From an uncultured Colwellia sp. (lineage in GTDB: Bacteria > Pseudomonadota > Gammaproteobacteria > Enterobacterales > Alteromonadaceae): a stretch of 64,000 nucleotides of DNA. The stretch lies in NCBI GenBank assembly GCA_913058145.1, contig CAJXQM010000005.1, forward strand, positions 62,001-126,000. The letters are read 5' to 3'. Positions 33,980 to 42,296 of the stretch are shown here, in pieces; within the stretch, counting starts at the first letter, position 1; the number at the start of each line of letters is the position of its first letter. The notes beneath the pieces are model-generated. The model was not told the DNA's origin. It was given only the letters and a program-made list of their open reading frames with translations, and made no database searches. A program made the translations under genes and the position numbers.

Positions 33980-34624
33980 ATGACTACAGAGATAGAACTT
34001 AAATACTTAATACCCGCAAATAATGAAGATAATGATGTAGTTGCTGATAACATTACGGCAATGTTAAAAGAACACACTATTACCTTTACACTTGACCAAA
34101 AGCAGTTAAACAATCACTATTTCGATAATAAAGACTTAGCGTTAAGAAAAATGGATATAGGACTGAGGATAAGAGGGGTTGACCAAGAATATGAACAAAC
34201 CGTTAAAACCGCAGGAAAAGTTGTTGGCTGTTTGCACCAAAGGCCAGAATATAATGTTGCTCTTGAAGATAACCAGTTAGCCTTATCATTATTTCCAGAA
34301 CATATTTGGCCAGCGCATGTTGATGTAGTGAAACTACAGAAAAGTTTGCAGGTGATTTTTAATACCAACTTTTCTCGTCAAACTTGGTTAATTACGCAAG
34401 CAAGTAGTGTTATTGAATTAGCACTTGATCGCGGTGAAATTTTCACTTCGCCTAATATAGAAACACTTGCCATAAATGAACTAGAAATAGAACTCGTTAG
34501 CGGTGATGAGCAAGCGTTATTTGCTTTAGCAGAGCAGTTAATGACCGTTGTTCAAATGAAGCCAGGTAAGTTAAGCAAAGCTGCTCGGGGTTATACCTTA
34601 TATCATCAAAGAGATGGTTCGTAG
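33980..34624 (+). CDS. ygiF: CYTH-domain inorganic triphosphatase, YgiF-like
   Basis: CYTH/triphosphate-tunnel enzyme of 214 residues; the E. coli homologue hydrolyses inorganic triphosphate. The N-terminal EIELKY gives the ExExK signature, and later strands supply the charged tunnel residues (GLRIRG, ELEIELVSG). It lacks the C-terminal CHAD domain that makes E. coli YgiF 433 residues long. The stop shares one base with the GTG start of the L,D-transpeptidase gene, so the two are translationally coupled. Confidence 0.85.
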   Translation: MTTEIELKYLIPANNEDNDVVADNITAMLKEHTITFTLDQKQLNNHYFDNKDLALRKMDIGLRIRGVDQEYEQTVKTAGKVVGCLHQRPEYNVALEDNQLALSLFPEHIWPAHVDVVKLQKSLQVIFNTNFSRQTWLITQASSVIELALDRGEIFTSPNIETLAINELEIELVSGDEQALFALAEQLMTVVQMKPGKLSKAARGYTLYHQRDGS

Positions 34625-35538
34625 TGAATATCAGTAATAAATTTTTAAAGCACTTTTTCTCTGTTGGCGTCATTACTTTATGTTTTATTAGCAATTTTAT
34701 TTATGCAACAGAATATGACTTACCAGCAAAAAACTTTCGACTTATTGGCGTTGATCAAAGCCATAAAGTTAAGAAAGGTGATTATTTTCAAAAAATTGCT
34801 GAGCAGTATAATGTTGGCTTTTTGGCACTAATGGCAGCAAACCCTGATATTGATCCTTTTTTACCTGAAATTGATAGTGATATTGTTATTCCTAGCGCTA
34901 TGTTATTACCCTATGTAAAACGTGAAGGTATTGTCATTAATTTACCTGAATTACGTTTGTATTATTTTTTACCACAAGAAAATAAAGTACATGTGTTTCC
35001 TGTTGGTATCGGTAGGGAAGGTTTGACGACGCCGAAAGCAACGAGTTACATTAGCAGCAAAAGAAAAGATCCTATTTGGCGGCCGACAAGCGCTATGCGC
35101 CAACGGTACTTTGAACAACACGGTAAACAAATGCAAAAAGAAATTGCTGCAGGGCCTAGTAATCCCTTCGGTAAATACGCATTACGACTCGGTACTAGTG
35201 AATATTTAATTCATGGCACTAATCAACGTTTTGGTATTGGCATGCGCTCGAGTTCAGGTTGTATTCGTATGTTTGACGGTGATATTAAATGGCTGTTTGA
35301 CAATGTTCCATTAAATACTAAGGTGCGTATTATTGATCAACCGATAAAAATGTCTTATGAAAGTGGAGGTAGACAGGTGATGGAAATACATTCCCCTTTA
35401 TCCATTGAAAATATAGCTCAAAAAAAATCAATAACTGCGGCGGTAAAAACGTTTGTCGGTAAAAATGATAGCGTGTGGCAAAAAATAATCCCTATGCTTG
35501 ATAAGCCACAGGGATTAATTATCGAGTTAGGACAATAA
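34624..35538 (+). CDS. LysM L,D-transpeptidase (YkuD/ErfK type)
   Basis: Periplasmic peptidoglycan cross-linking or lipoprotein-anchoring enzyme of 304 residues, starting at a GTG. Signal peptide (1-28), a LysM-like domain (about 47-92), then the YkuD domain with His197 (LIHGTNQRFGIG) and catalytic Cys213 (SSSGCIRMFD). Enzymes of this architecture in E. coli (ErfK, YbiS, YcfS) attach Braun lipoprotein to peptidoglycan. It is coupled to the CYTH gene and convergent with the lpp-like gene five bases away, its likely substrate. Confidence 0.9.
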   Translation: MNISNKFLKHFFSVGVITLCFISNFIYATEYDLPAKNFRLIGVDQSHKVKKGDYFQKIAEQYNVGFLALMAANPDIDPFLPEIDSDIVIPSAMLLPYVKREGIVINLPELRLYYFLPQENKVHVFPVGIGREGLTTPKATSYISSKRKDPIWRPTSAMRQRYFEQHGKQMQKEIAAGPSNPFGKYALRLGTSEYLIHGTNQRFGIGMRSSSGCIRMFDGDIKWLFDNVPLNTKVRIIDQPIKMSYESGGRQVMEIHSPLSIENIAQKKSITAAVKTFVGKNDSVWQKIIPMLDKPQGLIIELGQ

Positions 35539-35542
35539 TGGC

Positions 35543-35818
35543 TTATTTTTTATAAGAAGCAACAACGTTGTCAATGCGTTCATTTGCGTTCGCAGCACTT
35601 TCAGCGGCTTGCTCTGCTGCCATTTTAGCGGCTTGTGCTTCTTCGCTGATAGATTCGTGTTGTGTTTGAAGCTCAGAAACTTCGCTTGAAAGTGAGTCAA
35701 CTTTATTGGATAAACTGGCAATGCTTGATTCTAAGCCTTCAGTGTTTGCACAAGCGGTTAAGCCTAATGCAAAACTAACGGTAAGTAAATTTTTGATAAG
35801 TGATTTTTGTTTTAACAT
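35543..35818 (-). CDS. lpp: Braun-type outer-membrane lipoprotein
   Basis: Lipoprotein of 91 residues from the ATG at 35818, preceded by AGGG; an upstream in-frame ATG at 35857 would add 13 residues before the signal peptide. The lipobox is LTAC (Cys23). The mature part is one heptad-repeat helix (SIASLSNKVDSLSSEVSELQ) and the end AANANERIDNVVASYKK aligns with E. coli Lpp AARANQRLDNMATKYRK. The terminal lysine is the residue attached to peptidoglycan by L,D-transpeptidases. It is somewhat longer than Lpp. Confidence 0.85.
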   Translation of the reverse strand: MLKQKSLIKNLLTVSFALGLTACANTEGLESSIASLSNKVDSLSSEVSELQTQHESISEEAQAAKMAAEQAAESAANANERIDNVVASYKK

Positions 35819-35896
35819 AATGATGTCCCTATGTGTGTTTATTTTGATGTTAAACAAAAGTATGGCACATATAAGATTATTTTTACAAAAATCTAT

Positions 35897-36262
35897 TTAT
35901 TTGTTCTCGCTTAGGTTAACTGATTCAATGAGCTCATCCATTAATTTTCTCTTGATATCAAGTTGCTGTATGGCTTCTAAACCGTATTTTTCAGCTAATA
36001 ATTGATAATCACTTAGGGCTAAACTTACCGTTAGACGAGGGCGTTTTGGACGTTTATTAATGGGTAACCCTAAAATATCACGAATTTGATCTGATGGGCT
36101 AAGGCCGGCATCAAGCGCCTGTTTTCGAATAGACAACTGTATTTTTTCATCCATATCAAAAGCAACTTGCACGGCTTTCATTGCCTTTACTGAAGACTGC
36201 CATTTATCAGGGATTTTTCTATCTTTTTTTGTAGGGATAGATGAAGTATTAGCTTTTGTCAT
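35897..36262 (-). CDS. small protein with ribbon-helix-helix-like repeats, last gene of PspA cluster
   Basis: Not a family I recognise by name. The 121 residues hold two regions that read like ribbon-helix-helix DNA-binding units: about 30-65 (VQVAFDMDEKIQLSIRKQAL then GLSPSDQIRDILG) and, weaker, about 76-112 (RLTVSLALSDYQLLAEKYG). Beta-strand, helix, Gly-Leu-Ser turn and second helix are in the right order. It directly follows yjfK (22 bases), so it may be the regulator of the PspA cluster. This is inference from pattern only; a structural or packing role for the cluster is possible. Confidence 0.65.
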   Translation of the reverse strand: MTKANTSSIPTKKDRKIPDKWQSSVKAMKAVQVAFDMDEKIQLSIRKQALDAGLSPSDQIRDILGLPINKRPKRPRLTVSLALSDYQLLAEKYGLEAIQQLDIKRKLMDELIESVNLSENK

Positions 36263-36267
36263 ATTAT

Positions 36268-36288
36268 TTCCTAGTTCCTAGTTCCTAG
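36268..36288 (-). repeat. tandem heptamer carrying the ribosome binding site
   Basis: Three exact copies of TTCCTAG; on the minus strand this is CTAGGAA repeated, giving three Shine-Dalgarno-like AGGAA units ahead of the small-protein ATG and covering the yjfK stop codon. Repeat gain or loss would change the yjfK end and the spacing of the ribosome binding site. Confidence 0.8.
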
Positions 36289-36926
36289 CTCGCTGGGTAC
36301 ATATCAATAATATCGGTTAATGGTCTAAATAAGGTTAAAAAGACATCAGTATCGCCATCTTGCCACACTTCTATATCTACGCCTTTACTTTGATCTTCGT
36401 TATACAAGCTATATAGTTCAAGTTGCTCGCCAGAGCCTTTCCCTTCATAGGCAGAAAGATCTTCACTGCGATGATCTTTTCGATGAAAGTAACCCACTTT
36501 TGCAAAAATACTTTGTTGGTATTGTTCACTACTCCAAGTTGAAGTGACTTCATTATCACGTTGGCGGTTTAAAAAAGCTTGCCCAGGTTCATCAAATACT
36601 TGTGAGAAGTTATCTAAATCAAACAATGTTTCAATATCATCATGCTCAACTTTGACTGAAAACTTTAGCTCGGTGCTATCATCAATTTCTAATGATAAAA
36701 AGATCGCCAGTTCATCATTTCCTTGTAAAGACCATTCAGTTTGTGTGTTTTGTTCGTATTCATAGCTATTAACCGCGGTCACTTGAAACTGTTGACCTTG
36801 TAACGCTTGAGGTAAAGCAAAGCTATCCGTTAATACAATAATATCACCGACTAAAAGTTGGTTGACGTGAGTTAATTTACGTTCAGCTTGTGCTTCTTTG
36901 TTAAATATTTTTTTAAAAAAACTCAT
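36285..36926 (-). CDS. yjfK: DUF2491 family protein YjfK
   Basis: Cytosolic protein of 213 residues, acidic and rich in beta strands, without signal or membrane helices. The call rests on its length, its position right after the PspA homologue as in the E. coli yjfIJKLM cluster, and its general sequence feel (VGDIIVLTDSFALPQALQG, LYSLYNEDQ). Function is unknown; it is thought to act with the PspA-like coat protein. A large hairpin separates it from pspA. Confidence 0.75.
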   Translation of the reverse strand: MSFFKKIFNKEAQAERKLTHVNQLLVGDIIVLTDSFALPQALQGQQFQVTAVNSYEYEQNTQTEWSLQGNDELAIFLSLEIDDSTELKFSVKVEHDDIETLFDLDNFSQVFDEPGQAFLNRQRDNEVTSTWSSEQYQQSIFAKVGYFHRKDHRSEDLSAYEGKGSGEQLELYSLYNEDQSKGVDIEVWQDGDTDVFLTLFRPLTDIIDMYPAS

Positions 36927-37776: not shown

Positions 37777-38190
37777 TTACCGAAGGTAATCACTCATATC
37801 ATCAATTACTTCTATGGCGTTATTGCTTAACACAGCCAGCTCATGTTCAATATCTTCAAAGGTTGAATTGATAGATAAAGCCCCGAAAACTACATATTTA
37901 TCACCAATTTTTGAAAAAGATGATAAAGGCATGGGAATGTTCATTTCCAACATGCTTTCGTGCATTGTATTTATACATTCAGTTTTTACTTCATCAGTAC
38001 CCCAAAGATAACTGATGCATAAAATTTGGTCATCGGTTACTGATAAAAAGATGGGTAATTCTTCTCGTCCTAGAAGCGTTATTTGTAGTACATCGACTTC
38101 ACCGGATATAGGTTGACAGTCAAAGTTCATTCCTGTGTCAGAGTTATCGGCCAAGCTATTTAAATGATCGGCTATAGTATGAATATTCAT
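37777..38190 (-). CDS. yjfI: DUF2170 family protein YjfI
   Basis: Cytosolic protein of 137 residues resembling DUF2170/YjfI: acidic, mixed alpha/beta, with EVDVLQITLLGREELPIFLS and LPMPLSSFSKIGDKYVVFGALS-like strands near the middle. It precedes the PspA homologue by 61 bases as in E. coli yjfI-yjfJ. AGGA lies ahead of the ATG. It is the first gene after a promoter with two palindromic operators. Biochemical role unknown. Confidence 0.78.
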   Translation of the reverse strand: MNIHTIADHLNSLADNSDTGMNFDCQPISGEVDVLQITLLGREELPIFLSVTDDQILCISYLWGTDEVKTECINTMHESMLEMNIPMPLSSFSKIGDKYVVFGALSINSTFEDIEHELAVLSNNAIEVIDDMSDYLR

Positions 38191-38221: not shown

Positions 38222-38236
38222 TGACATAATATGTCA
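38222..38236. promoter_or_regulatory. palindromic operator O1 (yjfI promoter, downstream of start site)
   Basis: TGACATAATATGTCA, a perfect 15-bp palindrome around a central base. It lies at about +4 to +18 of the predicted yjfI transcript. Two further copies are at 38258-38272 and 42281-42295. Confidence 0.75.
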
Positions 38237-38245
38237 CCGAGGTTG

Positions 38246-38273
38246 AATTTAGCATCTTGACATATTATGTCAA
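38246..38273 (-). promoter_or_regulatory. predicted yjfI promoter
   Basis: Minus-strand TTGACA (38273-38268) and TAAATT (38251-38246) with 16 bases between. The consensus -35 is part of operator O2, and O1 follows the expected start site, an arrangement typical of repression. Confidence 0.55.
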
Positions 38274-38274
38274 G
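38256..38274. promoter_or_regulatory. palindromic operator O2 (yjfI promoter, over -35)
   Basis: CTTGACATATTATGTCAAG, a perfect 19-bp palindrome with the same TGACATA-N-TATGTCA core as O1, centres 36 bases apart. It covers the -35 and half of the spacer. Confidence 0.8.
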
Positions 38275-38326
38275 TGTTTTTTTTACTTGAGACTTCTTTT
38301 CTTAATAGTCATTTTTTGTAACTGGC

Positions 38327-40039
38327 TCAATTAATCCCTTGTTGGGTTTGCCATGCGTTTTGGTGTAATTGGTAAAGTGTATGGCTACCTAAAATATTGA
38401 TATCTATGTTTTCTTCATTAATATAGAAATCATTGGGGAAAATAAAAGCTGATTTTAATATGTCTATATTGAGCCAACTATGTTTGACCGGCAACTGTTT
38501 TAAATTATTTAGTCTTGCTAGTGGGCTCTTGCCTCTTTTTGAAGCTATAGTCCAGCCCCATTCTCCAAAGCTTGGAACATTGTCATGGTATTGCTGCACA
38601 TGCGCAAAGTTTGCAGCACGTAATGTTTTACCAATAGAAATAAATGAATTTTTTGCATGGTAAGGGCTTGTTGACTGAATGGCAATTAAGCCATCTCCTG
38701 AGAGTAGCTGTTTTAATCTAGCGTAAAAATTAACAGTGTAAAGCTTATTGAGATCGGGATGACTAGGATCAGGAAGATCGACAATAATAGCATCGAATAC
38801 TTGTCCCGCTTTAAGTAGTTTATTAACCGTTAAAAAAGCATCACTTCGTAAAATAGTGACTCGTTTATCTTGGAGGCTATTCTTATTCATATAGCTTATT
38901 TTTCTAGCTAAATTGGCATTTACATGTTGGTCTGGCGTTTTAAATATATTAATTAACTCGCTATCTAGATCAATCAAGGTCACTTTTTTTGGCCCGTATT
39001 TCAATACATCTCGCAGTGCTAAGCCATCGCCACCACCAATAATAAGTATATTATCATGTCGAGCTGAACCCGCTAAAACGGGCGCTACTAGGTAGTCATG
39101 ATAAATATGCTCATCGATGGATGAAAACTGTAAACGGCCATTAAGATAAAAGTTAATGATGCTAGTTTGTTGTTCGTCATCGCTAACACCTAAATAGCGT
39201 TCAGTGAAGGTAAGTTGCTGATAATTAGTTTTTTGTACGTGTACTACCTTGTCTAAATAGAGCAGGCTATTCATTTGATTTAGCCAGTGGTTACCGTAAT
39301 TAAACATTAATAAAATAAGTAATGCTAAGACTAGATGTAAACTAATAAAGGTTTTACGCCAGGTTAATTTATGCCAATACCGTAAAATAAAAAAAGCGCC
39401 AGCAATTAGATTTAAGCTAGCGGTTAACGCAGCCGCTTTACTGATATCTATGCTAAGTAAAAAAACCACCCAAATAGCAGCCCCAATGCCTGCACCAATG
39501 TAGTCTGCGCCATAAATTGTACCTAGATTATTAGCGAGGTGCTGACCATGTATTTCTTCACGAATTCTGGCGATTAGTGGAATTTCCATGCCAATAAAAA
39601 AACCTAATATCACACCGAAAAAATAAGGACTATTAATGGCAATAAAACTTAACTGCTTAAAAACTCCTCCTTTGGGTAGCATATCGGGAGGAAGGGCAAA
39701 CATATCGGCAATGATATGTGGCAATATTTGAGTGATGGCTATGAGACCGCCAATGATTAAAATGGCACTAGCACCGAGAAAAGCAATTAATAATTCTAAA
39801 TAAACAAAACCATTAAAGGCGCAGCGCACTTTACGCGCGGCAAAAGCACCTAGGCCCATTGACACGATCATTAAACCTATCATGGTATAAATGGTGCTTT
39901 CCATTACACCAAGCACTCTACCAGCGTAATGAGAAAGAAGATATTCGTAAATTAAACCACAACCGGCGAGAACCGCCATGGTTAAAATGAGTAGTGTGTC
40001 GTCAATAAGGCGGGAGTTTTTTGATGGCATAAAAGGCAT
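38327..40039 (-). CDS. membrane-anchored spermidine synthase-like protein
   Basis: Protein of 570 residues. About 220 N-terminal residues form some seven membrane helices; residues 270-545 are a polyamine aminopropyltransferase-type domain with the SAM-site LIIGGGDGLALRDVLKYGP, an acidic VTLIDLDSELI and the active-site VDLPDPSHPDLNKLYT. Soluble SpeE lacks the membrane part. It sits in the PspA cluster, where the E. coli yjf cluster instead has a glutathionylspermidine-synthase-like ATP-grasp gene; both point to polyamine chemistry at the membrane. Substrate is not known. Confidence 0.85.
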   Translation of the reverse strand: MPFMPSKNSRLIDDTLLILTMAVLAGCGLIYEYLLSHYAGRVLGVMESTIYTMIGLMIVSMGLGAFAARKVRCAFNGFVYLELLIAFLGASAILIIGGLIAITQILPHIIADMFALPPDMLPKGGVFKQLSFIAINSPYFFGVILGFFIGMEIPLIARIREEIHGQHLANNLGTIYGADYIGAGIGAAIWVVFLLSIDISKAAALTASLNLIAGAFFILRYWHKLTWRKTFISLHLVLALLILLMFNYGNHWLNQMNSLLYLDKVVHVQKTNYQQLTFTERYLGVSDDEQQTSIINFYLNGRLQFSSIDEHIYHDYLVAPVLAGSARHDNILIIGGGDGLALRDVLKYGPKKVTLIDLDSELINIFKTPDQHVNANLARKISYMNKNSLQDKRVTILRSDAFLTVNKLLKAGQVFDAIIVDLPDPSHPDLNKLYTVNFYARLKQLLSGDGLIAIQSTSPYHAKNSFISIGKTLRAANFAHVQQYHDNVPSFGEWGWTIASKRGKSPLARLNNLKQLPVKHSWLNIDILKSAFIFPNDFYINEENIDINILGSHTLYQLHQNAWQTQQGIN

Positions 40040-40101
40040 TTATTCTGTCGTTACGAGTGAATGATACGAGTTGGTAGTTACTAGCCTTGGGTGTAGAGTT
40101 A

Positions 40102-40134
40102 AGTGACTAGGTATTTGCTTTGTAACTAGTCACT
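40102..40134. repeat. hairpin between DUF350 and spermidine synthase-like genes
   Basis: AGTGACTAG (40102-40110) pairs perfectly with CTAGTCACT (40126-40134) across a 15-base loop, in the 120-base gap inside the cluster. Confidence 0.6.
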
Positions 40135-40159
40135 CTGAACCCAGAAGGTCGATTTTTCC

Positions 40160-41062
40160 TTATGCCATTAACGCAGTTAATATCAAGGCGATGGAAATAC
40201 TCGTTGCCATTTCAATACTAGCCACACCAATATTATGTTGCTGATCTACTTCTTCTACTAGGTTGATTCCCCAAAGCACAATACGTTTGGCTATTGAGGT
40301 CAACAGTGCAACCAATAGTGTCATGATTATACCGAAGACTAACCAGCCTAATAAATTCACTACTAAGGTGTCGGGACTATAAATAAGGAAGTGACTTGCT
40401 GCTGTGACGGCAAGTGCGGTACTAATAACTTGACCACTATAACGGATAGCAAGCGCTAAATGTCCATCGCTTAAGGCTTCTTGTAGACAATCTTGTTGAT
40501 TGTTTTTAGCATATTTTTTCTCTCTAATACGAGTCACCATAACTAATACTGCTTGTGCAACAATAAAGCCACTGGTAATGGCGATGAAGGTTGAAATATT
40601 TAAACCGTCAACCCAAAGTAATACCGCACGAATAATAATCGCGGTAGCAATGGCACCTGCTGCATCAACAATACCGATGGTAAGGTTTTTGTTTTTTATT
40701 AATTCTGTTTTATTTAAGTGCTGTAAAGCTACCTTGTCTTGAATGATACGTCCGACCTTAATCAATACCAATCCGTAGGTACCGTAGGCAAACATACCAA
40801 TGATTTCCATGGTATAACTTGGCGCATTTTCTCCGGAAATAGCACCAGTTAATACGATGCCTAACGCTAAAATACTACCGGCAACACTAACACCAAAGGC
40901 AAAGTTATCTTTTTGAGCTAATTCTTCTGTACTATTTACTTGGCTTGTTAAACCCAATAAAAAGCGCATAGCACCTAAAAGAATGATAGCAATAGTGATA
41001 TCTATGGCTAAATAAATCAGTAATTCTTGATTAACACCAACGAGATCTATCAATGTGTTCAT
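40160..41062 (-). CDS. yjfL: double DUF350 membrane protein, YjfL-like
   Basis: Inner-membrane protein of 300 residues with about eight helices. Two DUF350-type repeats are visible: FAFGVSVAGSILALGIVLTG (about 53-72) and the C-terminal HNIGVASIEMATSISIALIL. E. coli YjfL has one repeat in about 132 residues, so this is a tandem version. Function unknown; in PspA clusters DUF350 proteins are the constant membrane partner. It follows the lipoprotein gene by 21 bases and so is probably co-transcribed. Confidence 0.82.
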   Translation of the reverse strand: MNTLIDLVGVNQELLIYLAIDITIAIILLGAMRFLLGLTSQVNSTEELAQKDNFAFGVSVAGSILALGIVLTGAISGENAPSYTMEIIGMFAYGTYGLVLIKVGRIIQDKVALQHLNKTELIKNKNLTIGIVDAAGAIATAIIIRAVLLWVDGLNISTFIAITSGFIVAQAVLVMVTRIREKKYAKNNQQDCLQEALSDGHLALAIRYSGQVISTALAVTAASHFLIYSPDTLVVNLLGWLVFGIIMTLLVALLTSIAKRIVLWGINLVEEVDQQHNIGVASIEMATSISIALILTALMA

Positions 41063-41083
41063 AACTATCTATCCTATTTCTTG

Positions 41084-42121
41084 TTATTTACCACGTCGAA
41101 AACCACGTGATGTATTGGTGTTAGAGTTTCTAAAGCTAGAGCTTTTTCCATACTTTGATTGAGTACTAGATTTACTCGCATAGCTACTTTTTTTAGCGGT
41201 ATTACTTCGAAAACGATTAGCGCTAGATTGTGCTGTTTTACTTTTGGAAGATAAACTCGATGAGCCAGTACGGTTTTTATCGTATGGGCTGGTAAATTTT
41301 TTCCCTTTGCTTGCAAATGATTTTTTAGTGCGCTGATCAAGTTGTGTTTGTTTGTTTAGTTGGTTAGGTGAACTATAACGAGTTCTGCCGTAATCATTAT
41401 AATAGCTATAGTTTCTATTTCGTCCCCAGTCACTATAGTATGTAGGGCGACCAAGCATATTTCCCATCATAGAATACATGCCATACCATGCCCAAAAAGA
41501 CATACCATTGCTGCCCGTTTGCCAATTACCATAACTTGGGTTACCAATAAGTTGTTCACCCGTGCCAAAATCTTGCGCATTATTTGCTTGTTGAGATTGT
41601 GATTTAGATAAAGAGTTCACTCTGGGCAATTGACCGTCAGACATATCAGCTAATACATTTAAGGGATCACTTAATGCTTCAGAATAAAGTACGGGATCAG
41701 CCGCTTGATAAATATTGAGTAATTCGTCATAAATGGCTTGGCTTGAAGCAAACATTTGCGGTTGATTTTTTACTGTATTGACTCTATTTAGAAGGGCACG
41801 ATACATTGGTCCTTGTATGCTAGCATCTTTACTAAATTCTTCAGTCAACGCGTGTAAACTTGGCTTGATTTTGGATACTTTATCAGCATATTGATGAATT
41901 AGATTAGCATTGCGCACCTGCCCATTAGTTAACGCATCACCCAGTTGAGTAACTCTTTTCTCGGTTATGGGGAGTTGCTGTATTGCTTGTTCTTTAACGG
42001 GGTCACCACAAGCGGATAACAATAAAATAGAGAGCCCTAATACTGAACTAGTGCATATTTTATTAAAAAATTGTTTGATAAAAGAGTCTTTCAGCCTTTG
42101 CATTTCTGCTATCATCTCCAT
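41084..42121 (-). CDS. lipoprotein of PspA cluster, DUF1190/YjfM-like
   Basis: Predicted lipoprotein of 345 residues (or 339 from Met7 at 42103) with lipobox LLSAC near residue 38. The middle is low-complexity with a Trp/Met/Tyr-rich segment (SFWAWYGMYSMMGNMLGRP) and the last 100 residues are Ser/Lys/Asn-rich, ending in SRGFRRGK. The layout, with an SFW...GYMMGR-like segment and a Gly-Phe end, recalls DUF1190 proteins (YjfM, YgiB). Because YjfM sits beside YjfL in E. coli, I call it YjfM-like; the sequence match is partial. It is the first gene of the cluster. Confidence 0.6.
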   Translation of the reverse strand: MEMIAEMQRLKDSFIKQFFNKICTSSVLGLSILLLSACGDPVKEQAIQQLPITEKRVTQLGDALTNGQVRNANLIHQYADKVSKIKPSLHALTEEFSKDASIQGPMYRALLNRVNTVKNQPQMFASSQAIYDELLNIYQAADPVLYSEALSDPLNVLADMSDGQLPRVNSLSKSQSQQANNAQDFGTGEQLIGNPSYGNWQTGSNGMSFWAWYGMYSMMGNMLGRPTYYSDWGRNRNYSYYNDYGRTRYSSPNQLNKQTQLDQRTKKSFASKGKKFTSPYDKNRTGSSSLSSKSKTAQSSANRFRSNTAKKSSYASKSSTQSKYGKSSSFRNSNTNTSRGFRRGK

Positions 42122-42267
42122 AAAAATATGATGTTAATACTACCTATTCATTACACTCTTGTAAGGTCGTTATGCCAGTGATTTATCACGCTAGCATCTA
42201 ACAACTTTAACACTAGTTTCTCGATTAATACACTTCGAGTAGGACAGATAGTGAATCGTTCAGGTTA

Positions 42268-42296
42268 TTAATAGCATTAATGACATATTATGTCTA
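42268..42296 (-). promoter_or_regulatory. predicted promoter of PspA cluster with operator O3
   Basis: Minus-strand TAGACA (42296-42291), 17-base spacer, TATTAA (42273-42268). The near-palindrome AGACATAATATGTCA (42295-42281) covers the -35 exactly as O2 does at yjfI, with one mismatch to the core. Leader to the first gene is about 140 bases. Confidence 0.65.

Follow-up and report, generated by a model that had tools for sequence, protein, structure and literature searches.

Many bacteria rely on PspA proteins to protect their membranes, and knowledge of how these proteins are controlled comes mainly from PspF, ClgR, and LiaRS. Which regulator acts on a pspA gene that lies among three copies of one palindrome is the question raised by a gene cluster in a 64,000-nucleotide stretch of DNA from an uncultured Colwellia sp. 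(GenBank assembly GCA_913058145.1, contig CAJXQM010000005.1, positions 62,001 to 126,000 of the forward strand; hereafter the window, to which coordinates without another label refer). We consider it likely that the palindromes serve as operators for a local repressor, in all probability a 121-amino-acid ribbon-helix-helix (RHH)-like protein encoded at 35897-36262, which would control both halves of the cluster and, in relatives, further membrane-protection genes. This view draws on the conservation of the sites, the geometry of the yjfI promoter, the co-occurrence of the sites with the RHH-like gene, and the genes that lie behind the sites, each of which was computed.

Operator copies and promoter geometry

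An earlier, sequence-only reading of the window had described three palindromes, two exact and one with a mismatch, and no further copy. Motif scanning bore this out: TGACATAWTATGTCA has exact copies at 38222-38236 and 38258-38272 and a third copy, differing at one outer position, at 42281-42295, and the seven remaining window matches at up to three mismatches all carry three (10 matches in all versus 5.1 expected by shuffling). Two of the sites precede yjfI and the third precedes the half of the cluster that encodes the lipoprotein-like, YjfL, and spermidine-synthase-like proteins. The operators and promoters are as follows.

38222..38236, no strand assigned: operator O2, exact palindrome over the expected yjfI start site, its center 36 bp from that of O1.
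38258..38272, no strand assigned: operator O1, exact palindrome over the -35 element of the yjfI promoter; found together with O2 in 79 of 80 named loci (below).
38246..38273, minus strand: yjfI promoter from a promoter scan, TTGACA (38273-38268), 16 bp, TAAATT (38251-38246), with TG before the -10.
42281..42295, no strand assigned: operator O3, one outer mismatch, over a -35-like element upstream of the lipoprotein-like gene.
42268..42296, minus strand: candidate promoter of the lipoprotein-like gene, TAGACA, 17 bp, TATTAA; read from the sequence and unlisted by the promoter scan.

In the genome as a whole (3.0 Mb, 68 contigs, 97% complete), the strict 13-bp core GACATAWTATGTC has three copies, all at this cluster, against 0.21 expected from composition (Poisson probability of at least three copies, 0.0013); the strict core is thus not frequent in unrelated places. 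When up to two mismatches are allowed, 22 sites are found genome-wide versus 11 for a reversed control pattern. Single weak sites are therefore unreliable, and only strict sites carry weight on their own.

The -35 of the yjfI promoter lies under O1, and O2 follows just behind the -10. The sequence-only reading had placed two copies over -35 elements in the same register and the third after the yjfI start site. The overlap at O1 and O3 stands, and the register is nearly but not exactly shared (spacers of 16 and 17 bp); the remaining copy lies just behind the yjfI -10, over the expected start site.

The same geometry was recovered in relatives. Filtering for two strict cores and a yjfI start pattern retained 58 of 94 loci as strict twin promoters (11 loci of family f11 were among the 36 that failed). 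The -35 is TTGACA in all 58, and in all 58 the best -10 lies at 16-17 bp; it matches at least four of six consensus positions in 53, versus 7.9 in shuffled intervals. The O2 core begins 7-13 nt behind the -10, which is preceded by TG in 47 of the 58. The embedding of the -35 in an operator therefore holds for yjfI. Tentatively, it can be extended to O3, where the -35 hexamer of relatives is TAGACA in 30 cases and TGGACA in 10; of 54 TRGACA-type sites in the family loci, a count in which O3 and other sites are mixed, 29 have a TATTAA no more than 18 nt further on.

With O1 over the -35 and O2 over the expected start, a protein bound to both would shut RNA polymerase out of the yjfI promoter, which supports the earlier suggestion of a repressor. 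From this geometry we infer repression; that the RHH-like protein is what binds, and all that is said here of a signal, are likewise inferred. The operon of yjfI, pspA, the DUF4178-like gene, and the RHH-like gene would then be held down by its own RHH-like product in a negative feedback, and O3 would bring the lipoprotein-YjfL-spermidine-synthase half under the same repression. A membrane signal would lead to release of the repressor, and both halves of the cluster would be made.

Both yjfI palindromes were also flagged as terminator-like stems by a scan, which favors RNA hairpins (an attenuator or terminator) over protein sites in DNA; but O1 and O3 lie at -35 elements, upstream of the transcript, and the same word recurs at other promoters, such that we regard hairpins as very improbable.

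On the plus strand, a run of T after O1 gives a terminator-like score (38256-38285), and no plus-strand gene was seen reading into it.

Conservation and co-occurrence with a candidate regulator gene

The two palindromes before yjfI recur in 30 of 30 loci of the first locus set. Among 54 genomes of the same family that encode a closely related YjfI (the source genome included), 47 carry two strict cores and seven carry one, within approximately 175 bp of yjfI. In 80 named loci (Colwellia, Litorilituus, Thalassotalea, and others), the pair lies within 260 bp in 79, with a twin spacing of 35 to 39 bp, and in the eightieth it lies at -348 and -312. A strict O3 core was found in 74 of the 80 named loci and in 40 of the 53 family loci with a lipoprotein-like gene. 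These locus sets overlap, 27 sequences of the named 80 being family loci as well; of the sequence sets, A1 comprised 30 of the 54 family sequences and A2 59 of the named loci besides the window, with L306 left out.

Outside of the order, the RHH-like protein was identified in 11 genomes of a class sample (13 of 369 when two family genomes are included), and 10 of the 11 loci were examined. Two of them (L362 and L363, with guanine plus cytosine contents of 64.5% and 67.9%) have two adjacent palindromes before yjfI with cores 2 bp apart (L362:3058-3085 and L363:2926-2953; one of the four cores has a mismatch); of the other eight stretches, which are thus uninformative, six stop short of the start of yjfI and two lack a visible yjfI.

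The operator has a variant form in family f11 of the order. All 11 f11 loci examined carry GACATTWAATGTC at O2 and TTGACATATAATGNC at O1, and GACATTWAATGTC occurs once per genome in each of four genomes searched. Near the predicted first strand, A27 is replaced by V and V33 by I in all 11 f11 proteins; I33 is also present with the usual operator (L258). A match between these substitutions and the variant operator is only a hint.

The motif tracks the gene for the RHH-like protein, which is listed here with the evidence for its proposed role.

35897..36262, minus strand: proposed regulator, 121 amino acids, RHH-like, fourth gene of the yjfI operon; proposed from co-occurrence with the motif, AlphaFold2 secondary structure, and synteny with the operons of PMC11237479 as far as its available text describes them; without a Pfam match.

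Among 118 genomes of the same family, the core is present in 54 of 54 with the RHH-like gene versus two of 64 without it (G026 with two sites and G117 with one). Among 394 genomes of the order, 92 have both, 24 the gene only, 23 the core only, and 255 neither. Of the gene-only genomes, 22 belong to f11; of the core-only genomes, 19 have a single site. Four core-only genomes have at least two sites: G222 and G392 encode a YjfI-PspA cluster (the G222 stretch ends inside it), and for G026 and G196 the search gave no YjfJ-type PspA. DUF2170, the domain of YjfI, is encoded in 91 of the 118 family genomes, as the close YjfI type with the RHH-like gene in 54 and as a distant type without it in 37; the latter include a single genome with a core, G117, in which core and DUF2170 gene lie far apart. 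Since 36 of these 37 genomes lack the core, the motif goes with the RHH-YjfI unit rather than with DUF2170 in general.

Collectively, these observations favor the earlier proposal of one regulator for both promoters, in that the twin layout is conserved across several families and the motif tracks one putative transcription factor gene. They also bear on whether the palindromes could have arisen by chance or belong to a mobile repeat. The genome is AT-rich and single cores occur in those 19 genomes of the order without the RHH-like gene; but with three copies in one cluster where a fraction of one was expected, and a position conserved in distant relatives, we consider this explanation practically negligible.

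Sites elsewhere and the probable identity of the regulator

Many relatives carry 5 to 13 strict cores per genome. We examined 39 further site regions (L118-L156) in 11 relatives, which comprised all further places in ten genomes and all but one in G025; one representative of each target class was assigned by Pfam and the rest by similarity. Five recurrent classes of membrane-protection genes are preceded by 24 of the 39 regions: PspA-PspC operons (6), NhaA (5), HtpX (4), NfeD/SPFH or SPFH alone (7), and YqiJ-flotillin (2). One region each precedes a YidC/Oxa protein, an Mrp antiporter, a YbjQ-M48 group, and a Yip1 protein. Most further copies examined thus precede membrane-protection genes and not unrelated places. 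Four regions (L123, L131, L135, and L138) hold a gene pair whose second member is weakly flotillin-like (27-29% to the L118 Band_7 protein); given this weak likeness, their assignment to YqiJ-flotillin was rejected and they were counted apart. At L123, a strict operator precedes this conserved pair, and both proteins are without a Pfam family. In a separate set of 16 loci, genes were named only where they lie near a known target. HtpX is preceded by a site in three families (L122, L347, and L349; f6 and f12 are among them) and NhaA in f16.

In the source genome, sites with one or two mismatches lie 67 bp ahead of an Mrp antiporter and 188 bp ahead of the first gene of a PspA-PspC operon, and these rise above the background of weak sites because both are targets of strict sites in relatives. 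A one-mismatch site also lies 104 bp upstream of the gene for a Bax1-I family membrane protein (Pfam PF01027; L166, C22:45546-45560).

In five regions (L121, L127, L132, L144, and L149), the operator lies between an AsnC/Lrp-type gene (identified by Pfam in L121 and by look in the others) and NhaA; in L139 (from G069) and L165 (from the source genome), it lies between an AsnC/Lrp-type gene, by look, and an Mrp antiporter. It seems that one regulated place holds different antiporters. A small, probably secreted protein is encoded before the second PspA-PspC operon (L177:2166-2507, L120:1592-1885, L125, and L129); that of L120 has no Pfam family.

If the same protein acts at these places, it would in relatives also control the second PspA-PspC operon, HtpX, NhaA or Mrp antiporters, NfeD/SPFH, and YqiJ-flotillin genes, and this target list would propose which membrane-protection proteins (a second PspA, HtpX, antiporters, SPFH, and flotillin scaffolds) work together. 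An attractive candidate for a sensor is a partner from the operon, YjfI or PspA, because the RHH-like protein has no length to spare for an evident ligand-binding domain beside its two predicted units. As a possible but somewhat doubtful extension, a second, PspF-independent membrane-integrity regulon of Gammaproteobacteria may exist, in which a single-chain tandem-RHH repressor, its release governed by other products of the same operon (with YjfI or the YjfJ-type PspA as membrane sensor), places two PspA paralogs, HtpX, NhaA or Mrp antiporters, NfeD/SPFH, and YqiJ-flotillin under one 13-bp operator. The use of an RHH protein for a PspF-independent PspA regulon would, if true, be a new variant.

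RHH transcription factors have a beta-alpha-alpha fold and use the strand to read DNA. The AlphaFold2 model of the 121-amino-acid protein places two predicted beta-alpha-alpha units in one chain (strand 31-33, helices 39-52 and 56-64; strand 79-81, helices 83-93 and 100-120). Among the 50 Foldseek matches listed, single-chain Arc ranks fourth by expectation value (E-value; 1.1) and has the highest probability (0.51); it is followed by AvtR and chains of the F-plasmid relaxosome (TraY), with E-values near 1. A search of PDB sequences with the RHH alignment gave three chance-level matches only. RHH-like serves here as a working label, and the equation of the gene with the published RHH gene would follow from synteny; it is the association with the motif that suggests binding of the inverted half-sites.

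Several observations weigh against the RHH-like protein as the repressor at these sites. The AlphaFold2 model has low confidence (predicted local distance difference test score, 69; predicted template modeling score, 0.51). Foldseek gave no significant match (best E-value, 0.66) and the top three by E-value are not RHH entries. No known RHH sequence family was matched, with no Pfam match at E ≤ 1 and one chance-level NCBIfam match. The O3 core is absent in 13 of the 53 family loci, two f7 loci (L236 and L238) have variant operators with no obvious change in the first predicted strand, and four of four f25 loci examined keep just a degenerate O2-like site, GACTTATTATGTC. Seven of the 39 further regions fit no class (L130, L133, L136, L145, L147, L151, and L152), and in the source genome strict sites occur at the cluster only, the likely further targets having one or two mismatches. 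Regulon-wide, a -10 at the O1-type spacing was found for eight of 37 oriented sites versus 6.1 in shuffles, no commoner than chance. Lastly, the genomes are related, such that the co-occurrence counts are not independent events, and the RHH-like gene and the close YjfI type are present in exactly the same 54 family genomes, so that co-occurrence is unable to separate the gene from its operon.

A factor that is encoded elsewhere and is kept and lost with the operon may therefore account for the same counts, since the RHH-like gene was the sole regulator gene compared for co-occurrence. The palindromes would then be operators of another dimeric regulator (e.g., of the MarR, GntR, or TetR type), with the RHH-like gene a passenger of the operon. 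A palindrome of 13-15 bp with one central base also suits helix-turn-helix dimers, and among the top three Foldseek matches of the model, itself of low confidence, two bear the names of a transcription factor and of a restriction-modification controller protein, both of the helix-turn-helix kind. Such a regulator, however, would need to have been gained and lost with the RHH operon across families and outside of the order, and among the ten cluster and flank proteins scanned (Pfam and NCBIfam) the 121-amino-acid protein is the only candidate transcription factor. We consider another regulator unlikely.

The scarcity of clear -10 elements at many sites outside the cluster also favors an RHH protein that binds as an activator or dual regulator and not as a simple repressor. 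At yjfI, though, a consensus -35 and the start both lie under sites that flank a conserved -10, a polymerase-blocking geometry, and activation thus appears quite improbable. On the same count, we rejected an embedded -35, followed by a -10 at 16-18 bp, as a feature common to all regulon sites. Repression by the RHH-like protein remains the reading that we prefer.

Near L130, one of the seven regions outside the classes, a delta carbonic anhydrase is encoded.

Cluster genes and relation to known systems

On the minus strand, the genes of the cluster run in the order lipoprotein-like, DUF350/YjfL, membrane spermidine-synthase-like, yjfI (DUF2170), YjfJ-type PspA, DUF4178-like, and the 121-amino-acid protein. 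Besides the last, they are as follows.

36285..36926, minus strand: DUF4178-like protein, third gene of the yjfI operon; Pfam DUF4178 at E 5e-4, under the gathering score, and in the same place as the DUF4178 gene in the available text of PMC11237479.
37026..37715, minus strand: PspA/IM30 family protein of the YjfJ type; Pfam PF04012 at 1.9e-37; against TIGR02977, the classical PspA model, it falls well short of the cut-off.
37777..38190, minus strand: yjfI, DUF2170; Pfam PF09938 at 2.3e-39 (CesT/Tir-like in the available text of PMC11237479).
38327..40039, minus strand: membrane-bound spermidine-synthase-like protein; Pfam PF01564, NCBIfam NF002956.
40160..41062, minus strand: YjfL-like DUF350 membrane protein; Pfam PF03994 at 1.6e-33.
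41084..42121, minus strand: lipoprotein-like gene, the first behind O3; an open reading frame with no family over the cut-off in Pfam or NCBIfam, named by synteny with the operons in the available text of PMC11237479.

The cluster belongs to the YjfI-PspA spermidine-synthase operon group, as it comprises DUF2170, PspA, DUF4178, DUF350, lipoprotein, and spermidine-synthase-like genes and the optional RHH gene, with the DUF4178 match under the gathering score and the lipoprotein and RHH genes assigned by synteny. The named sequences closest to the RHH-like gene of the window are from Colwellia. Rearranged clusters were seen in L246, where the RHH match is approximately 4.7 kb from the yjfI start, and in L110, where the spermidine-synthase-like gene ends approximately 4.5 kb upstream of yjfI.

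The same gene set characterizes the second CesT/Tir-PspA group of a 2024 survey in mSystems (PMC11237479), where, according to its available text, some operons of this type end in a gene for an RHH transcription factor. That text gives no operator, RHH binding site, or further targets, and the strings 'palindrom' and 'htpx' are absent from its main text as available. The operon and the RHH gene are thus already published, and the operator, its pairing with the gene, and the regulon are what appears to be new. No report of these three was found in the open-licence literature, where the 13-mers occur in one paper, on Ephedra; in the available main text of two regulon-reconstruction papers (PMC3223726 and PMC5343134), psp, htpX, nhaA, and yjf are absent. 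The YjfI-PspA group, for which we found no regulon described in the literature, thereby gains an operator, a candidate regulator, and candidate co-regulated genes. The bac operon of Pseudomonas aeruginosa is similar in that a DUF2170 gene (BacA) is followed by a PspA-family gene, but it differs in its proposed sigma-54 site and in having no spermidine-synthase homolog in or around the operon, as far as the available text of PMC10948618 goes.

The cluster resembles the classical Psp system (PspF, sigma-54, and pspABC) in placing a PspA under what would be a dedicated regulator, and the second PspA-PspC operon resembles part of pspABC; it differs in that the proposed regulator is small and RHH-like and the yjfI promoter looks like a sigma-70 promoter with embedded operators. 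A scan for sigma-54 -24/-12 elements gave no good site before yjfI, and none either in the genome's own pspF-pspA intergenic region, the positive control. No PspF was found among the cluster proteins scanned against Pfam and NCBIfam, and the PspF of this genome is encoded on another contig beside its own pspABC. The occurrence of the PspA-PspC operon without a divergent pspF had suggested that the RHH-like protein replaces PspF, which was rejected since PspF was detected in 118 of 118 family genomes (TIGR02974 search). With a separate pspF-pspABC also present in six of six loci examined (the source genome and five relatives; PspB and PspC named by eye), the putative RHH regulon would run beside PspF.

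Self-regulating RHH repressors include Arc, MetJ, NikR, and antitoxins, and self-repression by RHH proteins is of a known kind. With these and with tandem-RHH proteins, the protein of the window would share short palindromic operators, control of its own operon, and two predicted beta-alpha-alpha units per chain; it differs in that no meaningful Pfam or PDB sequence match was obtained, in Foldseek E-values near 1, and in its targets.

Downstream of the RHH-like gene, at 34624-35857, a gene for an alanine-zipper (Lpp-like) lipoprotein and a gene for an L,D-transpeptidase converge.

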